Under the pieces are notes generated by a model. It made no database searches. It saw only the letters and a program-made list of their open reading frames with translations, and was not told the origin of the DNA. This document shows, one piece after another, positions 45,093 to 62,045 of a stretch of DNA of 64,000 bases. A program made the position numbers and the translations under genes. Position 1 is the stretch's first letter. Each line of letters opens with the position of its first letter. This DNA comes from Rhodopseudomonas sp. (GTDB lineage: Bacteria > Pseudomonadota > Alphaproteobacteria > Rhizobiales > Xanthobacteraceae), in NCBI GenBank assembly GCA_016124795.1, contig WGNB01000038.1:62001-126000 (forward strand). The letters are read 5' to 3'.

Positions 45093-45548
45093 TTACTTCT
45101 CCCAGGGAAACCCTTTCTTCTCGAAGTCGGCCGTGTTGGCAATGACGGCCGTGGCGTTCTTGAAGCCGATGCGCTTCATATCGGCGGCGGCCAGAGTTGC
45201 GCGTCCGCCGGTGGCGCACTGCAGATAGATCTTGGTCTTCATGTTGACCGTCTTGGGATAGCCCATTTTCTTCCAGATCTGGAATTCCAGCAGGCCGCGC
45301 GGAATGTTAATGGTGCCCTTGACGTGACCGGCGGCATATTCGGCCGGTTCGCGGATGTCGATCAGCAGGGCGCCGTTCGGGTTCTTGGCGGCGGCAAGAT
45401 AAGTGTCGAGGTCGGCCGTCTTGACCGTTTTGCGCACCTTGGTGACGTAGCTGCCGAAGCTGTCCGGCCAGTTTTCGGCGGCATAGGCCGGCGCGCTGAT
45501 AGCGAGTGCGGTGAACAGAACAAGGGCGAAACGCATTGCGCTTTTCAT
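45093..45548 (-). CDS. Exported rhodanese-domain protein
   Basis: Single-domain rhodanese, 151 residues, with a Sec signal peptide (MKSAMRFALVLFTALAISAP, probable cut after AYA at 23). The active-site loop CATGGR starts at Cys111 and DIREPAEY is the usual DxR motif, so it should carry a persulfide in the periplasm. ATG 45548 was chosen because the signal peptide begins there and GGGAG lies upstream. It is divergent from the STAS-like gene and shares the FNR-type box at 45626-45639. Confidence 0.9.
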   Translation of the reverse strand: MKSAMRFALVLFTALAISAPAYAAENWPDSFGSYVTKVRKTVKTADLDTYLAAAKNPNGALLIDIREPAEYAAGHVKGTINIPRGLLEFQIWKKMGYPKTVNMKTKIYLQCATGGRATLAAADMKRIGFKNATAVIANTADFEKKGFPWEK

Positions 45549-45625
45549 GACAATCGGCTCCCGGGGTTGAAGATTAGGGTTAGATAATCCCGCCATGATT
45601 TGTGCGGGTTTCCCGGCGGTCATCA

Positions 45626-45639
45626 TTGATATGTATCAA
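45626..45639. promoter_or_regulatory. FNR/FixK/ANR-type box (TTGAT-N4-ATCAA)
   Basis: Perfect TTGAT-ATGT-ATCAA, midway between the divergent rhodanese (start 45548) and STAS-like (start 45697) genes. The centre is 64 bases from the STAS ATG, with a TTTGATAG -10-like hexamer in between, a distance that allows class II activation. FNR/FixK proteins switch on genes at low oxygen. Confidence 0.8.
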
Positions 45640-45696
45640 CGTGAAATTGCATGGCCTGGCCGTTTGATAGTCCTGTCAAATCCGAAGGAGGCGATC

Positions 45697-46080
45697 ATGA
45701 TCGAACGTTTGACCGGTTTTCCAGACCATGTCTTGCCAGACAATGTCTTGGCATTCGTTTGCAAAGGTCGCGTGACGAAGGCCGATTACGAGGGCGTTTT
45801 GATCCCGGCGGTCACCAAGGCGCTGGAAACTTATGACAAGCTCGATCTGTATTATGAAATCGCCGCCGATTTCGAGGGGTTCGATCCGGGCGCGATGTGG
45901 GCCGACGCGAAGGTCGGGCTGGCGCATCTCAGCCGTTGGCGCAAGATCGCGGTGGTGACGGATGTCGACTGGATCGGCCACGCGGTCGCGATGTTCGGCT
46001 TCATGATGCCGGCCGAGGTGAAGGTGTTTCCGCTGGCCGAAGCCGCGAAGGCGCGCGCCTGGATCGGTCAGGCGGCTTAG
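45697..46080 (+). CDS. STAS/SpoIIAA-like protein
   Basis: Small soluble protein, 127 residues, of the SpoIIAA-like (DUF3478) type: LTGFPDHVLAFVCKGRVTKADY is the family-like start (with a short insertion), and WRKIAVVTDVDWI and VKVFPLAEAAKARAWI follow. These domains have an STAS-like fold and may bind lipids or act as protein adaptors; no biochemical role is assigned. The start has AAGGAGG (45685-45691) 5 bases upstream. The FNR-type box lies upstream. Confidence 0.85.
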   Translation: MIERLTGFPDHVLPDNVLAFVCKGRVTKADYEGVLIPAVTKALETYDKLDLYYEIAADFEGFDPGAMWADAKVGLAHLSRWRKIAVVTDVDWIGHAVAMFGFMMPAEVKVFPLAEAAKARAWIGQAA

Positions 46081-46198
46081 CCATTTTCGCTGGCCGATTT
46101 TTATTGAAGCCGTGTTGCGATTGTTGCCGTCGCCATTACTGCTGCGCGCGGCTGAATTTGCATTGCAAAAAAGTCGCAGTTGGAACGAATGCCGACTG

Positions 46199-46212
46199 TT
46201 GATTCATATCAA
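46199..46212. promoter_or_regulatory. FNR/FixK/ANR-type box upstream of the YeeE/YedE genes
   Basis: Perfect TTGAT-TCAT-ATCAA. A TATAAT hexamer follows at 46239-46244 (an alternative -10, TATAGA, is at 46233-46238). The box centre would then be about 41-46 bases before the transcription start, the class II activation position. The start of transcription would fall near 46247-46251, very close to ATG 46254. Confidence 0.82.
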
Positions 46213-46253
46213 GGTGTCGCCAATTCGCTGAATATAGATATAATTTAAAGAAT

Positions 46254-46790
46254 ATGTCAGCCGTGGGTTTGCCGATGCCAACAGCCGTCCGCCCTTTCTG
46301 GCCGCCGCTTGCCGCCGGTATCGTGCTCGGGCTGGTGCTGCTGCTGACGTTTCTGCTCAATGGTTACGGCCTTGGCGCCAGTGGATTTTTCACACGGTTG
46401 ACGGCCTGGCTGGGCGGCGAATTGGCCGGCCCGGTGACGCAGGCCAACAGCTATCTCGGGCCTTTCCTGAAAGGCGCCAATCCGCTGGCGAGCTGGATCA
46501 GTTGGGAAATCGTCGGCGTGATGCTCGGTGCCTTGTTGGCGGCGCTGACCGGCGGCCGGTTTCGCTTGCGGCTTGATGGCGCGCCGCGCCTGGGCGGTGG
46601 CGGCCGGATCGCTCTGGCGCTGGGCGGCGGTGTCCTGACCGGCTTCGGCGCGCGGCTGGCGCGTGGCTGCACCAGCGGCATCGGCTTGTCGGGAAGCGCG
46701 CCGCTGGCGGTGGCCGGCTTTCTGTTTCTCATCGGCTTTTTCATTGTCGGCATCGCCGTCAGTTTCCTGACCCGGAGGATCTGGGCATGA
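46254..46790 (+). CDS. YeeE/YedE family transporter, first half-protein
   Basis: Inner-membrane protein, 178 residues, with about four to five hydrophobic segments. The conserved Cys motif of the YeeE/YedE (thiosulfate/sulfur transport) family is GFGARLARGCTSGIGLSG. Many family members are about 350 residues with two such halves; here the halves are separate genes, as in PmpA/PmpB. It overlaps the second half by four bases. The start may instead be ATG 46275, because the inferred transcription start leaves almost no leader before 46254. Confidence 0.88.
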   Translation: MSAVGLPMPTAVRPFWPPLAAGIVLGLVLLLTFLLNGYGLGASGFFTRLTAWLGGELAGPVTQANSYLGPFLKGANPLASWISWEIVGVMLGALLAALTGGRFRLRLDGAPRLGGGGRIALALGGGVLTGFGARLARGCTSGIGLSGSAPLAVAGFLFLIGFFIVGIAVSFLTRRIWA

Positions 46791-47434
46791 CGCTTCCGCT
46801 TTACGACAGTGGCGTTGCCTCCGGTCTGCTGAGCGGGATGCTGTTCGGTTATGTGCTGGAGAACGCCGGTTTCGGCAGTCCGCGCAAATTGACGGCGCAG
46901 TTTCGTTTCAGCGACTGGTCGGTGTTCAAGGTGATGTTCACCGCCATCGTGGTTGCCGCGATTGGCTTGTATGTCGCGACCGCTTTCGGCTGGATGAAGG
47001 CCGGAAGCATCTTCATTCCGACGACATATTTCTGGGCGACCTTGACCGGCGGCGCCTTGGTCGGCGCCGGCATGGCGATCGGCGGTTATTGCCCGGGCAC
47101 GTCGTCGGTCGCTGTGGCGGCCGGCCGTCTCGACGGTCTGTTCTTTATCGTCGGCATGGTGCTTGGCACCGCGCTGTTTGCCGGTGTGTTCGATCGCATC
47201 GAAGGTTTCTATAGCGCCGCCGCCGGACCGGTGTCGCAGACCTTGCCGGAGTTGTTCGGCATTCCGGAATGGCTGGTGCTGGTGGCGCTCGTCGTGCTGG
47301 CCGTTCTTGGCTTTGTCGCCGGAACGATGCTGGAGCGATTGTATGGCGGCCCGCTGAGCGCCGCACAGGTCGAGACGGAGGGCGAGATCGCGTCCGTTAC
47401 CGAGATTGAAATCGTTGAAATAACGGCCGGCTGA
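46787..47434 (+). CDS. YeeE/YedE family transporter, second half-protein
   Basis: Inner-membrane protein, 215 residues, with about five hydrophobic segments. It carries the second conserved Cys motif GGYCPGTSSVAVAAG. Together with the first half it would form a full YeeE/YedE-type channel that passes thiosulfate or another sulfur species using cysteine relays. The last 25 residues are acidic and Glu/Ile-rich and probably cytoplasmic. Coupled to the first half by ATGA overlap. Confidence 0.88.
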   Translation: MTLPLYDSGVASGLLSGMLFGYVLENAGFGSPRKLTAQFRFSDWSVFKVMFTAIVVAAIGLYVATAFGWMKAGSIFIPTTYFWATLTGGALVGAGMAIGGYCPGTSSVAVAAGRLDGLFFIVGMVLGTALFAGVFDRIEGFYSAAAGPVSQTLPELFGIPEWLVLVALVVLAVLGFVAGTMLERLYGGPLSAAQVETEGEIASVTEIEIVEITAG

Positions 47435-47466
47435 CGCCGTCGGCGCGGTCGAACAGGGAGATGGAT

Positions 47467-47856
47467 ATGCGAACTCGGAAAAATGCCCCGGCGCGGGTTG
47501 TCGGTAGCCTGTCGGCCATGGCGGCGGCGCTCGCGGTGACGGCGGCGGCGCCGACCCCGGTTGCCGCTGCTGCTGCCGGTGCTTCTGCTTCTGCTGTGCA
47601 ATTGGCACAGGCGGCGCGAAATCCTTGCGGCCCCGCCAGCCCCTGCGGTCCGGCACGCCGCGGTGCTCCGGGCGGCAGCCCTTGCGCGCCCGCCGCCGAT
47701 CAGGGAAGTCCTTGCGGTCCGGCGCGTGGCCGGCCGCAGGCATCGCCGTGCGCTCCCGGTCAATCGGAAAGTCCCTGTGCGCCGGCACGCGGCAATCGCC
47801 GGGGACCGGCAGGCCCTTGTTCGCCGGCCAGTCCTTGTGCGCCGTCGCGCTCGTAA
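47467..47856 (+). CDS. Exported low-complexity protein with eight PCxP motifs
   Basis: I do not recognise this protein. It is 129 residues with an N-terminal signal-like stretch (basic RTRKN, then Ala-rich to about residue 45). The rest is Pro/Gly/Ala/Ser and Cys with eight PC[GAS]P motifs, spaced 6-16 residues apart, and Arg-rich spacers. There is no other hydrophobic or conserved core. If exported, eight cysteines in a flexible chain could bind metal or carry sulfane sulfur. ATG 47467 was chosen because AGGGAG (47455-47460) is 6 bases upstream and directly abuts ATG 47461. It lies between the sulfur transporter genes and the His-rich protein. Confidence 0.75.
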   Translation: MRTRKNAPARVVGSLSAMAAALAVTAAAPTPVAAAAAGASASAVQLAQAARNPCGPASPCGPARRGAPGGSPCAPAADQGSPCGPARGRPQASPCAPGQSESPCAPARGNRRGPAGPCSPASPCAPSRS

Positions 47857-47871
47857 GGGCGGAGCACCGAC

Positions 47872-48675
47872 ATGGCGCAGGCTGGGCTTCCGGGAACTAA
47901 AACTGCGGCGCTCAGCGCCGGGCCGGCCTGCTTGTCCGATAGCGAAGGCGCGGGCGATGATTTGCGCGCGCTTGAGTACGATGAATGTCGCGTGATGTAT
48001 GATGCCGCCGCCGACGCGGTTGAATGCATGGCGGCTATGGCGGCTCGCGGCAGGAACCCGGTGACCGAGGTGCTGGACGGCGTCGACGCGGTCGAAGAGT
48101 GGGCACATTTCCCGGCCGGCGACATCGTCGACCCGGTGACGCACAGCCAGTTTTATTACCACGCTCACGCAGCCGCCGAGCGTGCCAGCGGTGAACACGG
48201 CCACTTCCATACTTTCGTGCGGCCGAAGCTCTTGTGCCCCGATCGGTCGCCCATGGCGATCGCTGAGAGCGCGGAATCGCTGCCGGACACGACTTGGGTC
48301 GCCCATCTCGTTGGCATCTCGACCGATGAACGCGGACACCCGATCCGGTTGTTCACTACCAACCGTTGGGTCACCGACGAGGTTTGGTATGATGCGGAAA
48401 CGGTGATCGCGATGCTCGATAGTTTTGACATCACCGTCGAGCAACCGTCGGTCGATCTCAACCGCTGGGTCTCGGCGATGGTCCAGCTGTTCCGGCCACA
48501 AATCGCGATCTTGTTGCGCAAGCGTGACGCGGTCATCGCGCAATGGCGGATAGAACATTCCGAATGTGATGTGTTCGAGGATCGGGAATTGCAGATTGTG
48601 TCGGAAACCCCCATCGATTTTCTCAACCAGATCCGCGCCGTCGAAACGGCGTTGAACGGATCTAGGCAAAACTGA
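47872..48675 (+). CDS. His-rich protein of unknown function (possibly DUF6969)
   Basis: Soluble protein, 267 residues, no signal peptide. The clear feature is the segment HFPAGDIVDPVTHSQFYYHA followed by EHGHFHTF. It places His at about 79, 91, 97, 99, 109, 111 and 113, a dense potential metal or heme site. I tentatively recall this as DUF6969 but cannot confirm it. The second half (LFTTNRWVTDEVWYDA) has no known domain. It is in line with the Cys-rich protein (15-base gap) and the Mo protein (11-base gap), with GGGCGGAG upstream of the start. Confidence 0.75.
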   Translation: MAQAGLPGTKTAALSAGPACLSDSEGAGDDLRALEYDECRVMYDAAADAVECMAAMAARGRNPVTEVLDGVDAVEEWAHFPAGDIVDPVTHSQFYYHAHAAAERASGEHGHFHTFVRPKLLCPDRSPMAIAESAESLPDTTWVAHLVGISTDERGHPIRLFTTNRWVTDEVWYDAETVIAMLDSFDITVEQPSVDLNRWVSAMVQLFRPQIAILLRKRDAVIAQWRIEHSECDVFEDRELQIVSETPIDFLNQIRAVETALNGSRQN

Positions 48676-48686
48676 CGGAGCCGCCC

Positions 48687-49610
48687 ATGGATCGCCGCAC
48701 TTTTCTGGCCGCAGGCTCAAGCGCGCTGATCGGGACTGTACTGTCAGGTGGGCAACAGGCTTCGGCCGCCGTTGGCGCGTTGTCGGTGCGCGCGACCCCG
48801 GGCGGGCCTTTGCTGACACCAACCGACAAGTTCTTTGCCTATTCGCAGATGCGCTATCCGGAGACGCTGCCGACCGGCGTTGCGATCGACGGTCTGGTCA
48901 ATACGCCGGCGCGTTACAACATCGACGATCTCGCCAAGCTGCCGACCATCAAAAAGATCATGACGCTGGAATGCTTCGTCAACACCGCCGGTGGGCCGCT
49001 GATCTTCAATACTCCGTTCGAAGGTGTGCCGTTGTCGGCGCTGTTCGACAAAGCCGGCATCAAGCCGGAAGCCAAATCGGCGCGGATCGAAACCAGCGAC
49101 GGTCATCCGCCATTCCTGCTGCCGCTGACGGAATTGCAGCGCAAGGAAACGATGCTGGTTGCCAAACACGGCGATGCCGCGGTGCCGATGCGGCACGGCA
49201 GTCCCTATACCCGGCTGTTCATTCCCGGCGCCGGTGGCAACCACCATCCGAAATGGGTGAGCCGTATCACGCTGGTCGCCAATGCCGCGCCCGAACATCC
49301 GGCGCCGCCGATGGCCGGCTTTCTCATGCCCGCACCACCCGAGGTGGTCACGACCATGGCCGGGGTGACGCTCACCGGTTATGCCTTCACCGGCGCCGAG
49401 CCGGTCGGTAAGGTCGAGTTCTCGACCGATAACGGTTACACTTATCGCACCATGCCGCTGCCGCCGCAGCCCGATCCGGATGTCTGGATCACCTGGGACG
49501 TGACCTTTAAGCCGCCGGAGCCGGGCTTTTATGTGCTGCGGGTCAAGGCGACCAGCGCCAGCGGCCGCAAACAGGATTTTCCCGGCGTGATCGCGATCGA
49601 GGTGCGCTGA
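48687..49610 (+). CDS. Tat-exported sulfite-oxidase-fold molybdenum protein
   Basis: Predicted periplasmic molybdopterin oxidoreductase, 307 residues. The N-terminus DRRTFLAAGSSALIG is a Tat signal. The Moco domain (about 45-210) has Cys96 (TLECFVNTAGG) at the molybdenum-ligand position and GGNHHPKWVSRITL near 195. A Mo-co dimerisation domain (about 215-307; VTLTGYAFTGAEPVGKVEFS, WDVTFKPPEPGFYVLRVKA) follows, as in SorA/SoxC-type enzymes. The oxidised substrate is probably a sulfur oxyanion, but the family also includes other reactions. No heme domain is fused; the triheme cytochrome two genes on may take the electrons. Confidence 0.85.
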   Translation: MDRRTFLAAGSSALIGTVLSGGQQASAAVGALSVRATPGGPLLTPTDKFFAYSQMRYPETLPTGVAIDGLVNTPARYNIDDLAKLPTIKKIMTLECFVNTAGGPLIFNTPFEGVPLSALFDKAGIKPEAKSARIETSDGHPPFLLPLTELQRKETMLVAKHGDAAVPMRHGSPYTRLFIPGAGGNHHPKWVSRITLVANAAPEHPAPPMAGFLMPAPPEVVTTMAGVTLTGYAFTGAEPVGKVEFSTDNGYTYRTMPLPPQPDPDVWITWDVTFKPPEPGFYVLRVKATSASGRKQDFPGVIAIEVR

Positions 49611-49611
49611 C

Positions 49612-50253
49612 ATGAAGGTCGCATCGATGGTGGCGACTTTATGGAGCGAATTGCGCGGGTTGCGCCGTGCGCTGCTGACGCTGGCGCTGTTGTTCTTCGT
49701 CATCATGTTGCTCGAAGTCGATCTCGGCCATCGGCCGATTTTGGCGCGTCAGGATTCCTGGGGCGCGCTGGTGCCGGTGGTCTGGTTGCCGATCTCGTTG
49801 CTCGCGCTGATGGCGGTGCAGGTTGCGCCGTCCTGGGCGACTTCATTGTTCGCACAGGCGGTGATGGCGATATCCGCTGCTGTCGGCATGATCGGCTCTG
49901 GGCTGCATATGATGACCAGCGGCGTCGATCCCGACCATCTTGCCCGCGCTTTCTCCAGCAATGTTTGGGGTGGACCGGCTTCGCCGAACTGGCCGGTGGC
50001 GATTGCGCTCGCCTCGGTGCTTGGTTTCATCGCCGTCACCAGTGCCCAGCGCGACGGTGAAACGCTGCCGGATCGAGCCTTGGGCGCGACCGCGATTATC
50101 GCCGATCTGCTGATCGTGGCCGGGTGCGGCTTCGCGGCGGTGCCGTCGCTGGTGTTGCCGAGCGCCGTCTGTCTGGTCGTGGCGGCGCTGTTGCTGCTGG
50201 CGACGCTGCTTGCGCTACTTATTAACGCACGAACGGAAAGGGCCATGCCATGA
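49612..50253 (+). CDS. Multi-pass membrane protein, paralogue of the 50807-51406 product
   Basis: I do not recognise a named family. It is 213 residues with about six hydrophobic segments. Segments that align with the later membrane protein are EVDLGHRP, ALVPVVWLP, GMIGSGLHM and NVWGGPASPNWP, including His residues in matching positions. With the cytochrome between the two genes, it may be a quinol- or heme-binding membrane subunit. It starts one base after the Mo protein stop and overlaps the cytochrome by four bases. Confidence 0.82.
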   Translation: MKVASMVATLWSELRGLRRALLTLALLFFVIMLLEVDLGHRPILARQDSWGALVPVVWLPISLLALMAVQVAPSWATSLFAQAVMAISAAVGMIGSGLHMMTSGVDPDHLARAFSSNVWGGPASPNWPVAIALASVLGFIAVTSAQRDGETLPDRALGATAIIADLLIVAGCGFAAVPSLVLPSAVCLVVAALLLLATLLALLINARTERAMP

Positions 50254-50804
50254 CGCGCAAGGCGTTGTTGGTCAATACGCTGCTCGCGGTCGGAGCGATT
50301 GTTATCGTTGTGGGTGGGTTTTTCGCCACTTTCGCGATGTGGCGCCACCTTGACGAGGCTCGCGCGGTTTCGCTCGGCATTCCCTATACAGAATTCAACT
50401 GGAAGACGGCGCATGCCCAGGAACGCGGTTGCGTCGCCTGCCATGCCGATCATCTGGCGGAGGACGTCAACCGTCTCGTGGTGGCACGCAAGAAACCGGT
50501 GCAGCACGGCATCTTTGTTACCAGTTATGACATCCCGATGCGGGTTGAGGACTGCTTCATCTGTCACGGCAAATCCTTTGCCGCCAGCATGCACTCGCGC
50601 CATCTGCATGCGGCCGCTTTCACCAACATGGGCGGCAATTGCGATTCCTGCCACACCATGGTGAACGGCAAGATGGTGCTCTACGACGATCAGTCGCGCT
50701 ACGATGTCATCAATGGGGTCAGTTTCAAACCGACGCCGGCTTTTACCTCGCAATCGACCGATAGCCTGATCGATGGCCTCAAGAGCGTAGCGAAAGCGAA
50801 CTGA
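50250..50804 (+). CDS. Membrane-anchored triheme cytochrome c
   Basis: Periplasmic electron carrier, 184 residues. One N-terminal hydrophobic helix (about 7-30), uncleaved in appearance, is followed by three CxxCH sites: CVACH at 61-65, CFICH at 102-106 and CDSCH at 131-135. Extra His residues nearby (for example HSRHLHAAAF) could be distal ligands. The layout is NapC/NirT-like in spirit but with three hemes and no close match. The most likely partners are the two membrane proteins on either side and the Mo protein upstream. Confidence 0.88.
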   Translation: MTRKALLVNTLLAVGAIVIVVGGFFATFAMWRHLDEARAVSLGIPYTEFNWKTAHAQERGCVACHADHLAEDVNRLVVARKKPVQHGIFVTSYDIPMRVEDCFICHGKSFAASMHSRHLHAAAFTNMGGNCDSCHTMVNGKMVLYDDQSRYDVINGVSFKPTPAFTSQSTDSLIDGLKSVAKAN

Positions 50805-50806
50805 CC

Positions 50807-51406
50807 ATGCTGGGCCGTCTCCTCATTGTGGTCGCGATGATGTTGTTCGGCCCGTTATTTATCGAGGTCTATCTTTATCACCCGATGATCGCGCTTGAAC
50901 ACGATATGGCGGCGCTGGTGCCGCTAGTGGCGAGCCCTTTGGCGATCCTGACCGGCTTTCTGATGCTGGCTGTCGATCGTCGAATGACGGCCGGCCTGTT
51001 CGGGCTGGTCTGCCTGGGCGAAGTAGCGGTCGGCGTTGTCGGTGCGGCGATCCATATCGCCATCCACGCGCCTTCGTTTGCGAGCCTGGTGACCGAGCCA
51101 AACGTCTGGCTTGGTAATCCGCCGCCATTGGTGCCGTTGTCATTTGCTGCCGCCGGTTGTCTCGGACTGATCCCGGTTGTCTTGCCCGGGCAACGGTTGA
51201 TGCTGGAACCGCCGGTAGCGATCGCCCGTATTCTTTATGCGTTGGCTGCATTGTGCGGTCTGGTTGCCGTGGTGACCGGCGCGCAGGCCGAGGCCGGCGT
51301 CATCGCCTTGTGCGCGGTGATCGCAGCGCTGGGCTTCGGTTCGTTCGGTTATGTCGCAGAAGCCGGCATGCTGGCTTATGGGTTATGGCGCGACCGCGCG
51401 GCTTGA
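50807..51406 (+). CDS. Multi-pass membrane protein, paralogue of the 49612-50253 product
   Basis: Not assigned to a named family. It is 199 residues with about six hydrophobic segments. Matching segments with the first paralogue include EVYLYHPM, ALVPLVASP, GVVGAAIHI and NVWLGNPPPLVP. It is separated from the cytochrome by two bases. Its last 24 bases overlap the end of the convergent PPDK-like gene, so transcripts from both strands meet here. Confidence 0.82.
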   Translation: MLGRLLIVVAMMLFGPLFIEVYLYHPMIALEHDMAALVPLVASPLAILTGFLMLAVDRRMTAGLFGLVCLGEVAVGVVGAAIHIAIHAPSFASLVTEPNVWLGNPPPLVPLSFAAAGCLGLIPVVLPGQRLMLEPPVAIARILYALAALCGLVAVVTGAQAEAGVIALCAVIAALGFGSFGYVAEAGMLAYGLWRDRAA

Positions 51407-52987
51407 CCGGTCCGGCGACTTGGTGCGCCAGCTATTGACTTCGGCCAGTTCGGCGTCGGGGCTTTCTTCCACCACATCGCAGCGGCCGAGGTAGAGAGTC
51501 CCGGTCTCGCCATCGATTGAGAGCCAATCGCCTTCCTTAATCGGCGCGTCGGCCAGTTTCGCGCGCGCGCCCGGCGCGACGCCAAGTGCGGCGCAACCAA
51601 CCACGCAGGGCTTGCCCATTTGGCGCGCTACCAGTGCGGCATGGGCGGTACGGCCGCCGATCGCGGTAACGATGCCAGTAGCGACCGAAAATCCGGCGAC
51701 ATCAGCGGTGCTGGTATCGGGCCGCACCAGAATGATGGGGTCGCCGGCCGCGGCCAGCCGGGCGGCGCTATCGGAATCGAAGGCAATGCGTCCGACAGCG
51801 ATGCCGGCCGAGGCGCCGATACCATGGGCGACGGGGTCGTGCGCCGTCGCGAAATGCGGTTGGGTCAGCTTGTCGAGTGGTATGCCCTCCAGCCGCTGCA
51901 AGCCCTGCGCCGGCGTGATCAAACCCTCGCGCACCAGTTCGATGGCGAAACGCAGCGCTGCGATCGGTGTGCGCTTGGCGGCGCGGGTCTGGAGGATCCA
52001 CAGATGACCGTCCTCAATGGTGAATTCGACGTCCTGGACGTCAGCGAAGTCACGCTCCAGCAGCGTCAGGGTGTCGCGTAATTGGGTTGCGACCGCCGGC
52101 AGTCTTTGCCGGATGACGTGTTCCGTATCGGGTGTGCGTGCGCCGGAGACAACGTCCTCGCCTTGCGCGCCGAACAATACGTCGATCACCGGTTCGGCCG
52201 AACCTGTCGAGGGATCGCGCGAGAAGGCGACGCCGGCACCGGATTTGAGATTGCGGTTGCCGTAAACCATGGCCTGCACGGTGACGGCAGTGCCTTTGAG
52301 GTCGTCGAGGCCTTCCAACCGGCGATAGGTTTGCGCGCGTGGGCTGGTCCAGGAGCGATAGACTGCGTTGGCCGCCGCCGTCAGTTGTTTGAACGGATCG
52401 TCGGGCATGGCGTCGTCTCCGCCGTCGATGAGATCGAGATGGTCCGCGGCCAAACGCTCAAGCGCTTCGCCATCCAGACTTTGCTCGCCGCCGACACCTT
52501 CCATCGCGATCATCGCCTTGAGCCGGGCTTTGAACGGCGCCGGGTCGAGGCCGAGCACGACGTCGGCATAGCTTTCGAGGAAACGGTGACGGCAATCCCA
52601 GGCAAAGCGCGGATTGCATGTGGCGCGGATCAGGCCCCTGACGGCGTCGGCGCTGCAGCCGACGTTGAGCACGGTGTCGAGCATGCCGGGCATCGAGCGC
52701 GCCGCGCCCGAGCGTACCGACACCAGCAGCGGATTGCGTCGGTCGCCGAAGATTCGGCCGGTGGCGCTTTCCAGGAAGGCAATGCCGTCGCGCAGGCCGA
52801 TAGCGATCTGACGGTGGGCGTCCTTGTCGCCGGCGACGATGGCCGCGCACAATTCGATCGGCAACACGAAGGCGGGCGGAACCGGCAGGCCGAGCGCCGC
52901 CATGCGCGCCAGATTGGCGGCTTTGCCACCGACGATCTCGGCTGTGGGTTGCTCGGTCGAGCCGGCGCCGATGCGGACAATCTGCAT
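51383..52987 (-). CDS. PPDK-like ATP-binding and phosphohistidine protein without PEP domain
   Basis: 534 residues. The N-terminal ATP-grasp region of pyruvate phosphate dikinase is clear: GGKAANLARM (20-29), PLLVSVRSGAARSMPGMLDT (86-105), and VEFTIEDGHLWILQTR ending near 335. The central phosphohistidine domain has GGRTAHAALVARQMGKPCVV with His449. The protein then stops: the roughly 340-residue PEP/pyruvate barrel of PPDK is absent. It should be able to phosphorylate His449 from ATP but needs another acceptor. The neighbouring 642-residue protein, 17 bases upstream on the same strand, is a candidate partner. Confidence 0.88.
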   Translation of the reverse strand: MQIVRIGAGSTEQPTAEIVGGKAANLARMAALGLPVPPAFVLPIELCAAIVAGDKDAHRQIAIGLRDGIAFLESATGRIFGDRRNPLLVSVRSGAARSMPGMLDTVLNVGCSADAVRGLIRATCNPRFAWDCRHRFLESYADVVLGLDPAPFKARLKAMIAMEGVGGEQSLDGEALERLAADHLDLIDGGDDAMPDDPFKQLTAAANAVYRSWTSPRAQTYRRLEGLDDLKGTAVTVQAMVYGNRNLKSGAGVAFSRDPSTGSAEPVIDVLFGAQGEDVVSGARTPDTEHVIRQRLPAVATQLRDTLTLLERDFADVQDVEFTIEDGHLWILQTRAAKRTPIAALRFAIELVREGLITPAQGLQRLEGIPLDKLTQPHFATAHDPVAHGIGASAGIAVGRIAFDSDSAARLAAAGDPIILVRPDTSTADVAGFSVATGIVTAIGGRTAHAALVARQMGKPCVVGCAALGVAPGARAKLADAPIKEGDWLSIDGETGTLYLGRCDVVEESPDAELAEVNSWRTKSPDRSSRAVAP

Positions 52988-60521: not shown

Positions 60522-62045
60522 ATGAACCTCGCTGAACTCATCGAGCGTAACGCCGCCTTCACGCCGGACAAGACGGCGCTGCGGTTCGAAGGTCGGGCGC
60601 TCGGCTATGCCGATTTCGCGGCGCGGATCGCGCAGACGGCGCGCGCCTTGAAATCGGAACTTGGCGTCGGTCGTGGCGACCGGGTCGCGATCCTGGCGCT
60701 CAATTGCCCCGACTATCTGGTGCTGCTTTATGCCTGCGCCCGGCTTGGCGCGATCCTGTTGCCGTTGAACTGGCGGCTGGCGGTGCCGGAACAGGTTTTC
60801 ATTCTGAGCGATGCCTCGGCCAAAGTGCTCGTGGTCGAACAAACCTTCAGCGCGCTGGTGCCGTCGTTGAAGGAAGCCTTGCCCGACATCCGCGTTGTTG
60901 GCCTGGGCGCCGCCGATGGCGCGGAGATCGCTTTCGACGATCTCTTGGCGCAAGGCAGCGGCGACGGCCACAATCCGCATATCGACGAGCGTTGCCCTCT
61001 GTTGCTCGTCTACACTTCGGGCACCACCGGTCGCCCGAAAGGCGCGATGTTGCGGCAGGAGGCGCTGTTGTGGAACGGCGTCATGAGCCAGCACATGCAT
61101 GACATGACGGCGGCCGATCACATTCTCACGGTGCTGCCGTTCTTTCATGTCGGTGGTCTCAATATCCAGACGACGCCGGCGCTGCATCTCGGCGCTACCG
61201 TCACGATTCACGCCCGTTTTGCCCCGGATGCGACCTTGCAGGCGATCGCGCAGGACAAGCCGACGCTGACCGTGCTGGTGCCGGCGACGATTCAGGCGGT
61301 GCTGGCGGACAAGAGCTGGGCGACGACCGACCTGTTGTCCTTGCGCGCGCTGTCGACGGGATCGACGCAGGTTCCGGTGCCGCTGATCGAAGCGGTTGAG
61401 GCGCGTGGTGTGCCGGTGCTCCAGGTCTATGGTTCGACAGAAACCTGCCCGGTCGCGGTTTATACCCGGATTGGCGGCGATCTGTCGCGCAAGCAATCGA
61501 CCGGCTTGCCGGGGATTTTATGCGAGGCGCGGATCGTCGACGATAAGGGCCGGATTGCGCCGGTCGGCGCGGCCGGCGAGGTGCTGGTGCGCGGGCCGAA
61601 TGTGTTCTTCGAATACTGGGGCAATGAAGCGGCGACCGGCGAAGCCTTGCGCAATGGCTGGTATCACACCGGCGACATCGGCACCCGCGACGCCGACGGC
61701 TATTTCTATATTCACGACCGCAAGAAGAACATGATCATCTCGGGCGGCGAGAACATTTACCCGGCCGAGGTCGAGCGCGTGTTGCACGGCCATCCCGACG
61801 TTGCCGAAGCGGCCGTGATCGGGCGTCCCGATCCGAAATGGCAGGAAGTGCCGGTCGCCTACGTGGTGCGGCGCGCCGGCAGTGATTGCAGCGCCGATGT
61901 TCTGATTGCGCATTTGTCCGCGCAACTGGCGCGCTTCAAGGTGCCGCGAGAGGTCGTATTCGTCGAAACCTTGCCGCGCAATGCGCTCGGCAAGGTGCAA
62001 CATTTCATGCTGAAGGAACAGGCGTGCGCGCCGCCGCCCTCTTGA
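60522..62045 (+). CDS. AMP-forming acyl-CoA ligase (FadD/AcsA-like)
   Basis: 507 residues. Motifs: LVYTSGTTGRPKGAM (P-loop), YGSTETCPVAVYT, GEVLVRGPNVFFEYWGNEAA, YHTGDIGTRDADGYFYIHDR, KNMIISGGENIYPAEVERVL and the catalytic Lys in RNALGKVQHFMLKE. It activates a carboxylic acid to its CoA ester; substrate class (aliphatic or aryl-alkanoic) cannot be fixed. It follows the dehydrogenase by 16 bases. Confidence 0.9.
   Translation: MNLAELIERNAAFTPDKTALRFEGRALGYADFAARIAQTARALKSELGVGRGDRVAILALNCPDYLVLLYACARLGAILLPLNWRLAVPEQVFILSDASAKVLVVEQTFSALVPSLKEALPDIRVVGLGAADGAEIAFDDLLAQGSGDGHNPHIDERCPLLLVYTSGTTGRPKGAMLRQEALLWNGVMSQHMHDMTAADHILTVLPFFHVGGLNIQTTPALHLGATVTIHARFAPDATLQAIAQDKPTLTVLVPATIQAVLADKSWATTDLLSLRALSTGSTQVPVPLIEAVEARGVPVLQVYGSTETCPVAVYTRIGGDLSRKQSTGLPGILCEARIVDDKGRIAPVGAAGEVLVRGPNVFFEYWGNEAATGEALRNGWYHTGDIGTRDADGYFYIHDRKKNMIISGGENIYPAEVERVLHGHPDVAEAAVIGRPDPKWQEVPVAYVVRRAGSDCSADVLIAHLSAQLARFKVPREVVFVETLPRNALGKVQHFMLKEQACAPPPS

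Follow-up and report, generated by a model that had tools for sequence, protein, structure and literature searches.

The stretch of DNA under study (positions 62,001 to 126,000 of contig WGNB01000038.1, assembly GCA_016124795.1, Rhodopseudomonas sp.) is 64,000 nucleotides long and is referred to here as the window. Ten neighbouring open reading frames (ORFs) are present between 45093 and 51406, a rhodanese gene on the minus strand and the remaining nine on the plus strand (Table 1). A preliminary description, made from the letters of the window, had placed them around two perfect FNR-type boxes and had proposed one oxygen-controlled module for sulfur and redox chemistry. The ORFs and both boxes were recovered where it had located them and its domain calls agree with Pfam. 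The recurrent pairing of a DUF6969 protein with an exported Cys-repeat protein is absent from it. What emerges is a real, conserved and little-noticed core, composed of two half-size YeeE/YedE transporters, a PC-repeat protein and DUF6969. Attached to it is a redox cassette, private to this genome in the searches made, of a molybdenum (Mo) protein, two membrane proteins and a triheme cytochrome. Comparison of gene neighbourhoods shows the core to be conserved; its chemistry we infer.

Table 1. Genes and promoter elements at 45093-51406 of the window.
Feature	Position	Strand	Observations
Exported single-domain rhodanese	45093..45548	-	PF00581 45.2 bits; ~151 aa; signal peptide by eye; divergent
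Perfect FNR/FixK-type box TTGATATGTATCAA	45626..45639		Divergent promoter region between the rhodanese and STAS-like genes
SpoIIAA-like (STAS-like) protein	45697..46080	+	PF11964 95.8 bits
Perfect FNR/FixK-type box TTGATTCATATCAA	46199..46212		TATAAT at 46239-46244 downstream
Half YeeE/YedE transporter, C-terminal half type (PmpA-like)	46254..46790	+	PF04143 72.1 bits, profile positions 173-308
Half YeeE/YedE transporter, N-terminal half type (PmpB-like)	46787..47434	+	PF04143 63.2 bits, positions 4-149; DUF6691
Predicted exported PC-repeat protein	47461..47856	+	8 Cys, every one in PC[GAS]P; four CxPxR
DUF6969	47872..48675	+	PF22308 257.6 bits (cut-off 27)
Sulfite-oxidase-fold Mo protein	48687..49610	+	PF00174 (Oxidored_molyb) 77.3 bits; Tat-type N-terminus by eye
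Membrane protein A	49612..50253	+	Six hydrophobic segments; 33% identity to membrane protein B
Membrane-anchored triheme cytochrome c	50250..50804	+	CVACH, CFICH, CDSCH; one hydrophobic segment
Membrane protein B	50807..51406	+	Six hydrophobic segments

Pfam gave no match for the PC-repeat protein or for membrane protein B and only a sub-threshold one for membrane protein A; the cytochrome matches Cytochrom_c3_2 barely above the cut-off (26.7 bits for 25). The ORF at 47461-47856 has the features of an exported Cys-repeat precursor, with eight PC motifs behind a hydrophobic N-terminus. The most likely start of the rhodanese gene is the ATG at 45548 (by eye) and that of the STAS-like gene is 45697, preceded by GGAGG; these shorter starts were preferred because the longest-ORF starts reach or cross the first box. 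From 46254 onward the intergenic gaps are -4, 26, 15, 11, 1, -4 and 2 bp. Since neighbours overlap or are at most 26 bp apart, the eight genes at 46254-51406 fit a single predicted operon, and the earlier proposal of an operon of at least eight genes holds on this point.

The FNR/FixK-type palindrome TTGATNNNNATCAA, found by sequence upstream of this predicted operon, occurs exactly twice in the 64-kb window, at sites 573 bp apart, with about 0.007 perfect sites expected from base composition. When one mismatch was allowed, 33 of 100 shuffles reached two sites, so that two are then not unusual. The second box is located 41 bp upstream of the first half transporter gene, with the TATAAT between them. 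The two boxes suggest induction at low oxygen. The host genome contains an ORF (L131) for a regulator of the Crp family whose recognition helix, ETVSR, we take to be FixK-like.

DUF6969 was found in 39 of the 249 genomes of the host's order (own genome included) and in 12 of the 344 genomes of a phylum sample, and occurs in alpha-, beta- and gammaproteobacteria and in Rokubacteria. Two Rokubacteria ORFs of 838 and 888 residues, first taken for DUF6969 fusions, were rejected as frames reading in over the upstream gene (DUF3179 by eye). Sixty-one DUF6969 loci were compared, namely the window, 11 contigs, 40 regions from the order search and nine from the phylum search; some belong to the same genus and are non-independent (e.g. 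L056/L058, L060/L062, L129/L130). A PC-repeat protein was called when at least three PC motifs spaced by at most 30 residues followed a hydrophobic N-terminus, on the same strand and within 5 kb. By this rule a predicted exported PC-repeat protein is encoded at 38 of the 61 loci, window included; five weak or opposite-strand cases seen by eye (L070, L072, L073, L076, L123) are outside the count. The repeats adjoining DUF6969 are of the types CNPCNPC, NPCAPANPCA, APCAAGAPC and NPCGPAKKK, that of the window being PCGPxSPCGP. Counted on both strands, 49 PC-repeat ORFs were found in 594 kb near DUF6969 and one in 380 kb elsewhere, in a count that was not blind, the rule having been drawn up after many loci had been seen. 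The lone distant case (L104, 9353-10897) bears CNPC repeats and, by eye, a P460-like tail, in a genome (G037) without DUF6969 match; either this repeat protein is independent or its partner is missing. The motif CNPCNPC was present in 13 of the 249 order genomes, 11 of which are among the 39 with DUF6969 (P 2e-8, for a pattern picked from some of the genomes afterwards scanned). The reversed control pattern was present in one of the 249.

DUF6969 and its exported Cys-repeat partner are thus a recurrent two-gene unit without description in the literature found. No paper on DUF6969 was found in the literature searched, a search whose coverage mostly excluded subscription papers. The same search returned none on the repeat motifs CNPCNPC, NPCAPANPC and SPCGPA (occurrences of NPCNPC were unrelated by title), and the titles and abstract openings that it covered held no description of the gene set of the window. 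The core is apparently undescribed so far.

A YeeE-family protein is encoded at 19 of the 61 loci. The order half YeeE (C type), half YeeE (N type), PC repeat, DUF6969 recurs at six of them besides the window (L031, L061, L066, L071, L129, L130). In L129 and L130, which belong to one genus of another class, a two-domain rhodanese gene follows DUF6969. The PC repeats are fused to rhodanese in L031 and to a BLH-phosphatase-type domain in L061, L066 and L071 (domain scan on L066). The succession rhodanese, YeeE, repeat protein, DUF6969 was also observed elsewhere, for example in L063, L067, Ciceribacter thiooxidans (L152) and Sinorhizobium meliloti ml66 (L153). On recount, rhodanese is encoded at 16 of the 19 YeeE loci (14 two-domain cases, L031 and the divergent gene of the window) and at 16 of the 61 overall. 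A weak rhodanese relative on the opposite strand of L033 is outside this count, and a rhodanese flag in L032 and on the plus strand of the window was discarded, the match being to the repeats, not the rhodanese, of the L031 fusion. The strongest relative of the window rhodanese at the compared loci is the rhodanese part of that fusion (L031:3329-3961). The STAS-like protein has no relative at the 51 other DUF6969 loci compared.

An FGE-like exported protein is encoded at 15 of the 61 loci. YeeE and FGE were never found together (0 of 61; 4.7 expected, P 0.0014). A tree of DUF6969 with 59 rows was drawn from 54 of the 61 loci and five plasmid rows, a length filter having removed L040, L041, L077, L079, L080, L129 and L130; on it the YeeE and FGE labels are strongly clustered, and the window groups with L031 and L032 with support 100/99. 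Where the locus is of the FGE type, repeats and a P460-like domain are often parts of one fusion protein; in L038, and by cluster and eye also in L059 and L124, the domain joined to the repeats is a cytochrome c. Since the PC repeats are fused to such differing domains, they would behave as an arm joined to varied periplasmic redox or sulfur domains. The four CxPxR motifs of the window repeat protein are of the kind on which an FGE acts; in the host, one FGE-family gene occurs elsewhere in the genome and no FGE-like match was obtained around the window operon. TRAP-transporter-like and universal-stress-like genes, identified by eye, adjoin DUF6969 in L034, L035, L036, L122 and L123, four of these five having an FGE-like gene.

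DUF6969 itself has no signal peptide (by eye). Of 54 rows, 52 to 54 keep each of six histidines (H97, H99, H109, H111, H113 and H145); for H145 the count is 60 of 60. Nearly all rows also keep D87, E108, N164, W166, R218 and D219. An AlphaFold2 model from 10 sequences reached a mean pLDDT of 86.5, with core blocks mostly above 90. No Foldseek match at E<=0.001 was obtained for it among 350,542 PDB chains, a comparison made with PDB chains only and leaving out predicted structures of cellular proteins, and the DUF6969 profile found nothing below E 0.09 among PDB sequences. The protein is read as a predicted metal-binding protein with a fold not yet solved. It might go further and be a metalloenzyme of a new fold, modifying cysteines in PC-repeat proteins that leave by the Sec route. 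It would then represent a class of peptide maturation without sequence relationship to the MNIOs, giving rhodaneses, phosphatase-like domains and cytochromes of the periplasm poly-Cys arms for sulfane sulfur or metals; we regard this as speculative and rather unlikely. That DUF6969 is no enzyme at all, acting as a sensor or chaperone for the repeat protein, seems no less doubtful. Its small size, the lack of a signal peptide, its place beside an exported repeat protein and the absence of a fold match assigning it an enzyme class are in keeping with such a role, but the six near-invariant histidines together with E108 and D87 resemble a metal centre.

The arrangement is reminiscent of the bufferins and their MNIO (DUF692) partners, in which, as in the window, an exported Cys-repeat protein stands beside a conserved His-rich cytosolic protein. 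In both systems, FGE and cytochrome c occur as fusions or neighbours (PMC12452194 for the bufferins). The systems differ in that DUF6969 is a separate Pfam family whose model lacks a PDB fold match and in that the window repeat protein has no bufferin or other Pfam match. No MNIO enzyme was found among the ten window proteins with Pfam and NCBIfam, a search confined to these ten. By analogy, the PC-repeat protein could bind copper or some other thiophilic element after export, DUF6969 having matured it in the cytosol. It would then work as a bufferin does, though with an unrelated partner, and the YeeE proteins and rhodanese would supply or remove sulfur for the metal sites. Besides the shared logic of a small exported Cys-repeat protein and a cytosolic His-rich partner, this possibility, which we consider real though improbable on balance, draws on the FGE-like proteins lying within 5 kb at 15 of the 61 loci and on the P460 or cytochrome c domains fused to repeats (e.g. 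L060, L038), fusions of bufferins with cytochrome c and FGE being described (PMC12452194). It also draws on the neighbourhood of DUF6969 in two organisms, where ECF-type sigma genes occur together with NrsF or zf-HC2. In Skermanella mucosa, DUF6969 and repeat protein genes are accompanied by DUF302, sigma factor and NrsF genes. The Burkholderia glumae plasmid p79s4p (L155) presents genes for thioredoxin, CcdA, a sigma-70 family factor, zf-HC2, a transporter, the Cys-repeat protein and DUF6969, followed past DUF6969 by MTA phosphorylase and arsenosugar genes. There, the genes for DUF6969 and an exported protein of KCAPKCAPK type are thus flanked by a sigma factor/zf-HC2 pair on one side and by arsenosugar biosynthesis genes on the other, a neighbourhood hinting at a metalloid link. 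Metal binding is nevertheless at odds with the YeeE-family neighbour in the window and 18 other loci, with the rhodanese at 16 of these 19, with the lack of any metal-transport family in the Pfam matches of the ten window proteins and with the failure of DUF6969 to match an MNIO family.

The half transporters lead instead to sulfur. Each is one half of PF04143 with a single conserved Cys, in ARGCTSG for the PmpA-like half (alignment of five) and in GGYCPGTS for the PmpB-like half (alignment of four). The pair resembles PmpA and PmpB of Serratia, likewise two half-size YeeE proteins of N- and C-half types with one conserved Cys each, but its members are 178 and 215 residues long instead of about 130 (PMC11582611) and are co-encoded with a PC-repeat protein and DUF6969. 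Import of sulfur into the cytoplasm is termed poorly understood in the abstract of the same source (PMC11582611). The explanation that we tentatively put first, while holding it short of probable, is that the operon encodes a sulfur system of the periplasm, made of two parts and induced at low oxygen. As a cytosolic metalloprotein, DUF6969 would bind or modify the PC-repeat precursor ahead of Sec export. In the periplasm the cysteines of the repeat protein would take sulfane sulfur from or through the rhodanese and hand it to the single conserved Cys of PmpA and PmpB for import. The Tat-exported Mo enzyme would oxidise or reduce sulfur-oxygen species, and the membrane triheme cytochrome, between two paralogous six-helix proteins, would wire it to the quinone pool. 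The FNR/FixK-type boxes would switch the operon on at low oxygen. What places sulfur handling first is YeeE, rhodanese and the sox-like genes of the host, whose contig C54 (L107) carries SoxC-, SoxD-, SoxB- and SoxA-like genes, named by eye; the FGE-type loci and the sigma factor neighbours put metal binding not far behind. The sulfur role put forward in the preliminary description is reasonable for the same host genes, for the conserved order of the core and for the fusions of repeats to rhodanese and BLH-phosphatase domains; its ten genes as one conserved module were not supported. The degrees of confidence attached here to the alternative explanations are not mutually exclusive.

In the cassette, the sulfite-oxidase fold foreseen for the Mo protein is borne out by PF00174 and by matches in the PDB to 6y0k, 2xts and 2blf (SorA), and the triheme cytochrome does lie, with three CXXCH motifs, between paralogous membrane proteins. 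The Mo protein has one Cys only, C96, which aligns with a Cys of 6y0k and 2xts, the Mo ligand of these solved sulfite oxidases and dehydrogenases. Its NCBIfam scores are 52.8 bits for SorA (cut-off 600), 64 for SoxC (TIGR04555, 420) and 20.1 for MsrP (NF003767, 207), and far below cut-off for SorT. Its C-terminal stretch weakly aligns with the sulfite oxidase dimerisation region (PF03404, 14.4 bits, below cut-off), a second domain also seen in the PDB comparison. The Arg following the Cys in 6y0k has no counterpart in the alignment, which does not fix the reaction since 2xts lacks it too. An AlphaFold2 model of the membrane proteins was discarded (pLDDT 45.7). As in SorAB, SorT and SoxCD, an exported sulfite-oxidase-fold Mo protein is combined with a cytochrome c; here, however, the cytochrome is anchored and triheme, two membrane proteins are added and the Mo scores are far below cut-off. 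The likely host soxC is on another contig (C54), apart from the Mo gene of the window. MsrPQ likewise joins a Mo protein of this fold to membrane partners, but the window protein falls well short of the MsrP cut-off, its partners are unrelated by Pfam and its C-terminus is weakly like the sulfite oxidase dimerisation region.

The genes of the cassette were hardly met elsewhere. Beyond its own genome the cytochrome gave two weak matches and nothing else (1 of 249 order genomes, 2 of 120 relatives and 2 of 349 phylum genomes, in overlapping samples); these two matches have E 7.5e-4 and 8.2e-4 and an internal stop. The profile of membrane proteins A and B matched its own genome only (1 of 299). 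For the Mo protein, searched in 119 relatives and in plasmids, the relatives gave low-scoring family members, the best among the matches listed having 50.1 bits and 37% identity over 132 residues; among the same matches, that in G041 covers residues 43-298 at 32% identity and 32.6 bits. Eighty-three plasmid records match, 58 of them over more than 80% of the query and all below 60% identity (32.9% for the best among the matches listed), and in the two plasmid neighbourhoods inspected (Thermus, Halarchaeum) no annotated cytochrome or rhodanese adjoins. None of the four cassette genes, Mo protein, membrane A, cytochrome and membrane B, was found at the 51 other DUF6969 loci. The idea of ten genes forming one conserved module was dropped: the cytochrome and membrane genes were not met elsewhere apart from the two weak matches, and the relatives of the Mo protein are distant. 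From these comparisons the cassette was concluded to be an addition of the host lineage or too rare for the sample. Base composition is not decisive for its origin. The mean guanine-plus-cytosine fraction of the window genes is 0.639 (standard deviation 0.028), from which the Mo protein and membrane genes deviate by less than one standard deviation; low values were found for the cytochrome (0.575), the rhodanese (0.584) and the STAS-like gene (0.594).

The cassette could then serve respiration or repair independently of the core, for example as a quinol-fed S-oxide reductase in the style of MsrPQ, and share its promoter with the core by chance. This is compatible with any reading of the core and is a substantial if minority possibility, in line with the absence of the cassette from the 51 other loci and the confinement of the cytochrome (the two weak matches aside) and membrane pair to their own genome. 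Cytochromes of the c3/c7 family have low potential, and FNR-type control with weak matches to this family would suit a reductase. Such independence sits less well with the gaps of 11, 1, -4 and 2 bp after DUF6969, which make co-transcription likely, and the MsrP score and the lack of an MsrQ-type Pfam match in A and B speak against an MsrPQ-like unit.

Returning to the two-part sulfur system, several observations weigh against it. The preliminary description had made its proposal depend on a gene order conserved beyond close relatives: this was found for YeeE-YeeE-PC repeat-DUF6969 in six other loci and not for the Mo-membrane-cytochrome-membrane half, and since the latter is not conserved its link with the core may be accidental. 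Sulfur is a putative cargo. Fifteen loci pair DUF6969 with an FGE-like protein in place of YeeE; since these never carry YeeE too, the pair of DUF6969 and repeat protein is not tied to sulfur import. The study in PMC11582611 found no evidence that PmpAB of Hyphomicrobium denitrificans serves in oxidative sulfur metabolism, so that a sulfur role is not to be taken for granted. Sixteen of the 61 loci have no PC repeat, YeeE or FGE by rule, and for eight of these the fetched stretch does not end within 5 kb. DUF6969 is also patchy in its distribution: no match came from ten genus-mates of the host or from eight other genomes of the same family listed in the order search.

The oxygen control that had been proposed stood in part. 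In the 200 bp before the first YeeE gene, a box with at most one mismatch was found at four of the 18 other YeeE loci (L031, L079, L129, L130; 0.23 expected), and adverse to the proposal is its absence from the other 14. The significance of this excess is overstated, since the test followed sight of the boxes and L129 and L130 are of one genus. Three of the six loci with the window order have a box and three (L061, L066, L071) do not. At L129 (6199) and L130 (5482) the box precedes the half YeeE gene by about 100 bp, and oxygen control of the core gene order may be shared with this genus of another class. Taken over all 55 other operon heads, the excess was small, another point on the negative side: two perfect boxes (0.23 expected) and five with at most one mismatch (1.2 expected), in a test that missed the boxes of L031, L079, L129 and L130, which fall outside the stretch taken as head.

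Several relatives are found in named organisms. The rhizobial sulfurtransferase-YeeE genes of S. meliloti ml66 share with the window an exported rhodanese, there of two domains, YeeE, a PC-repeat protein and DUF6969; there, however, YeeE is full-length and no Mo-cytochrome gene is annotated beside it in the stretch. In C. thiooxidans, YeeE appears as two overlapping ORFs. On pSymA of S. meliloti 1021 the repeat gene overlaps the DUF6969 gene (NC_003037.1, about 1280762-1281349), and no YeeE match was obtained within the 14.6 kb stretch. The DUF6969 of S. meliloti shares 75% identity with one from a family (f6) of the host's order, a hint that this order would be Hyphomicrobiales. In Azospirillum sp. 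B510 and A. brasilense, DUF6969 occurs without a repeat protein, seen or annotated, in the stretch. The presence of the pair in the genetically tractable S. meliloti 1021 opens its cargo, sulfur or metal, and its cytosolic preparation to direct test. The core is a candidate answer to how periplasmic sulfane sulfur gets to YeeE-type importers, and the operon as a whole suggests that sulfur or metals may be handled beyond the cell membrane in a way that is new.

Two further observations concern the surroundings of the ten genes. Just upstream, on the minus strand, lie genes for A/V-type ATPase subunit D (PF01813, 36927-37598) and subunit I (PF01496, 41999-43846), judged unusual for an apparent alphaproteobacterium. 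On the other side, a minus-strand gene at 51383-52987, encoding a 534-residue protein with PPDK_N and PEP-utilizers domains, overlaps the last gene of the operon convergently by 24 bp.

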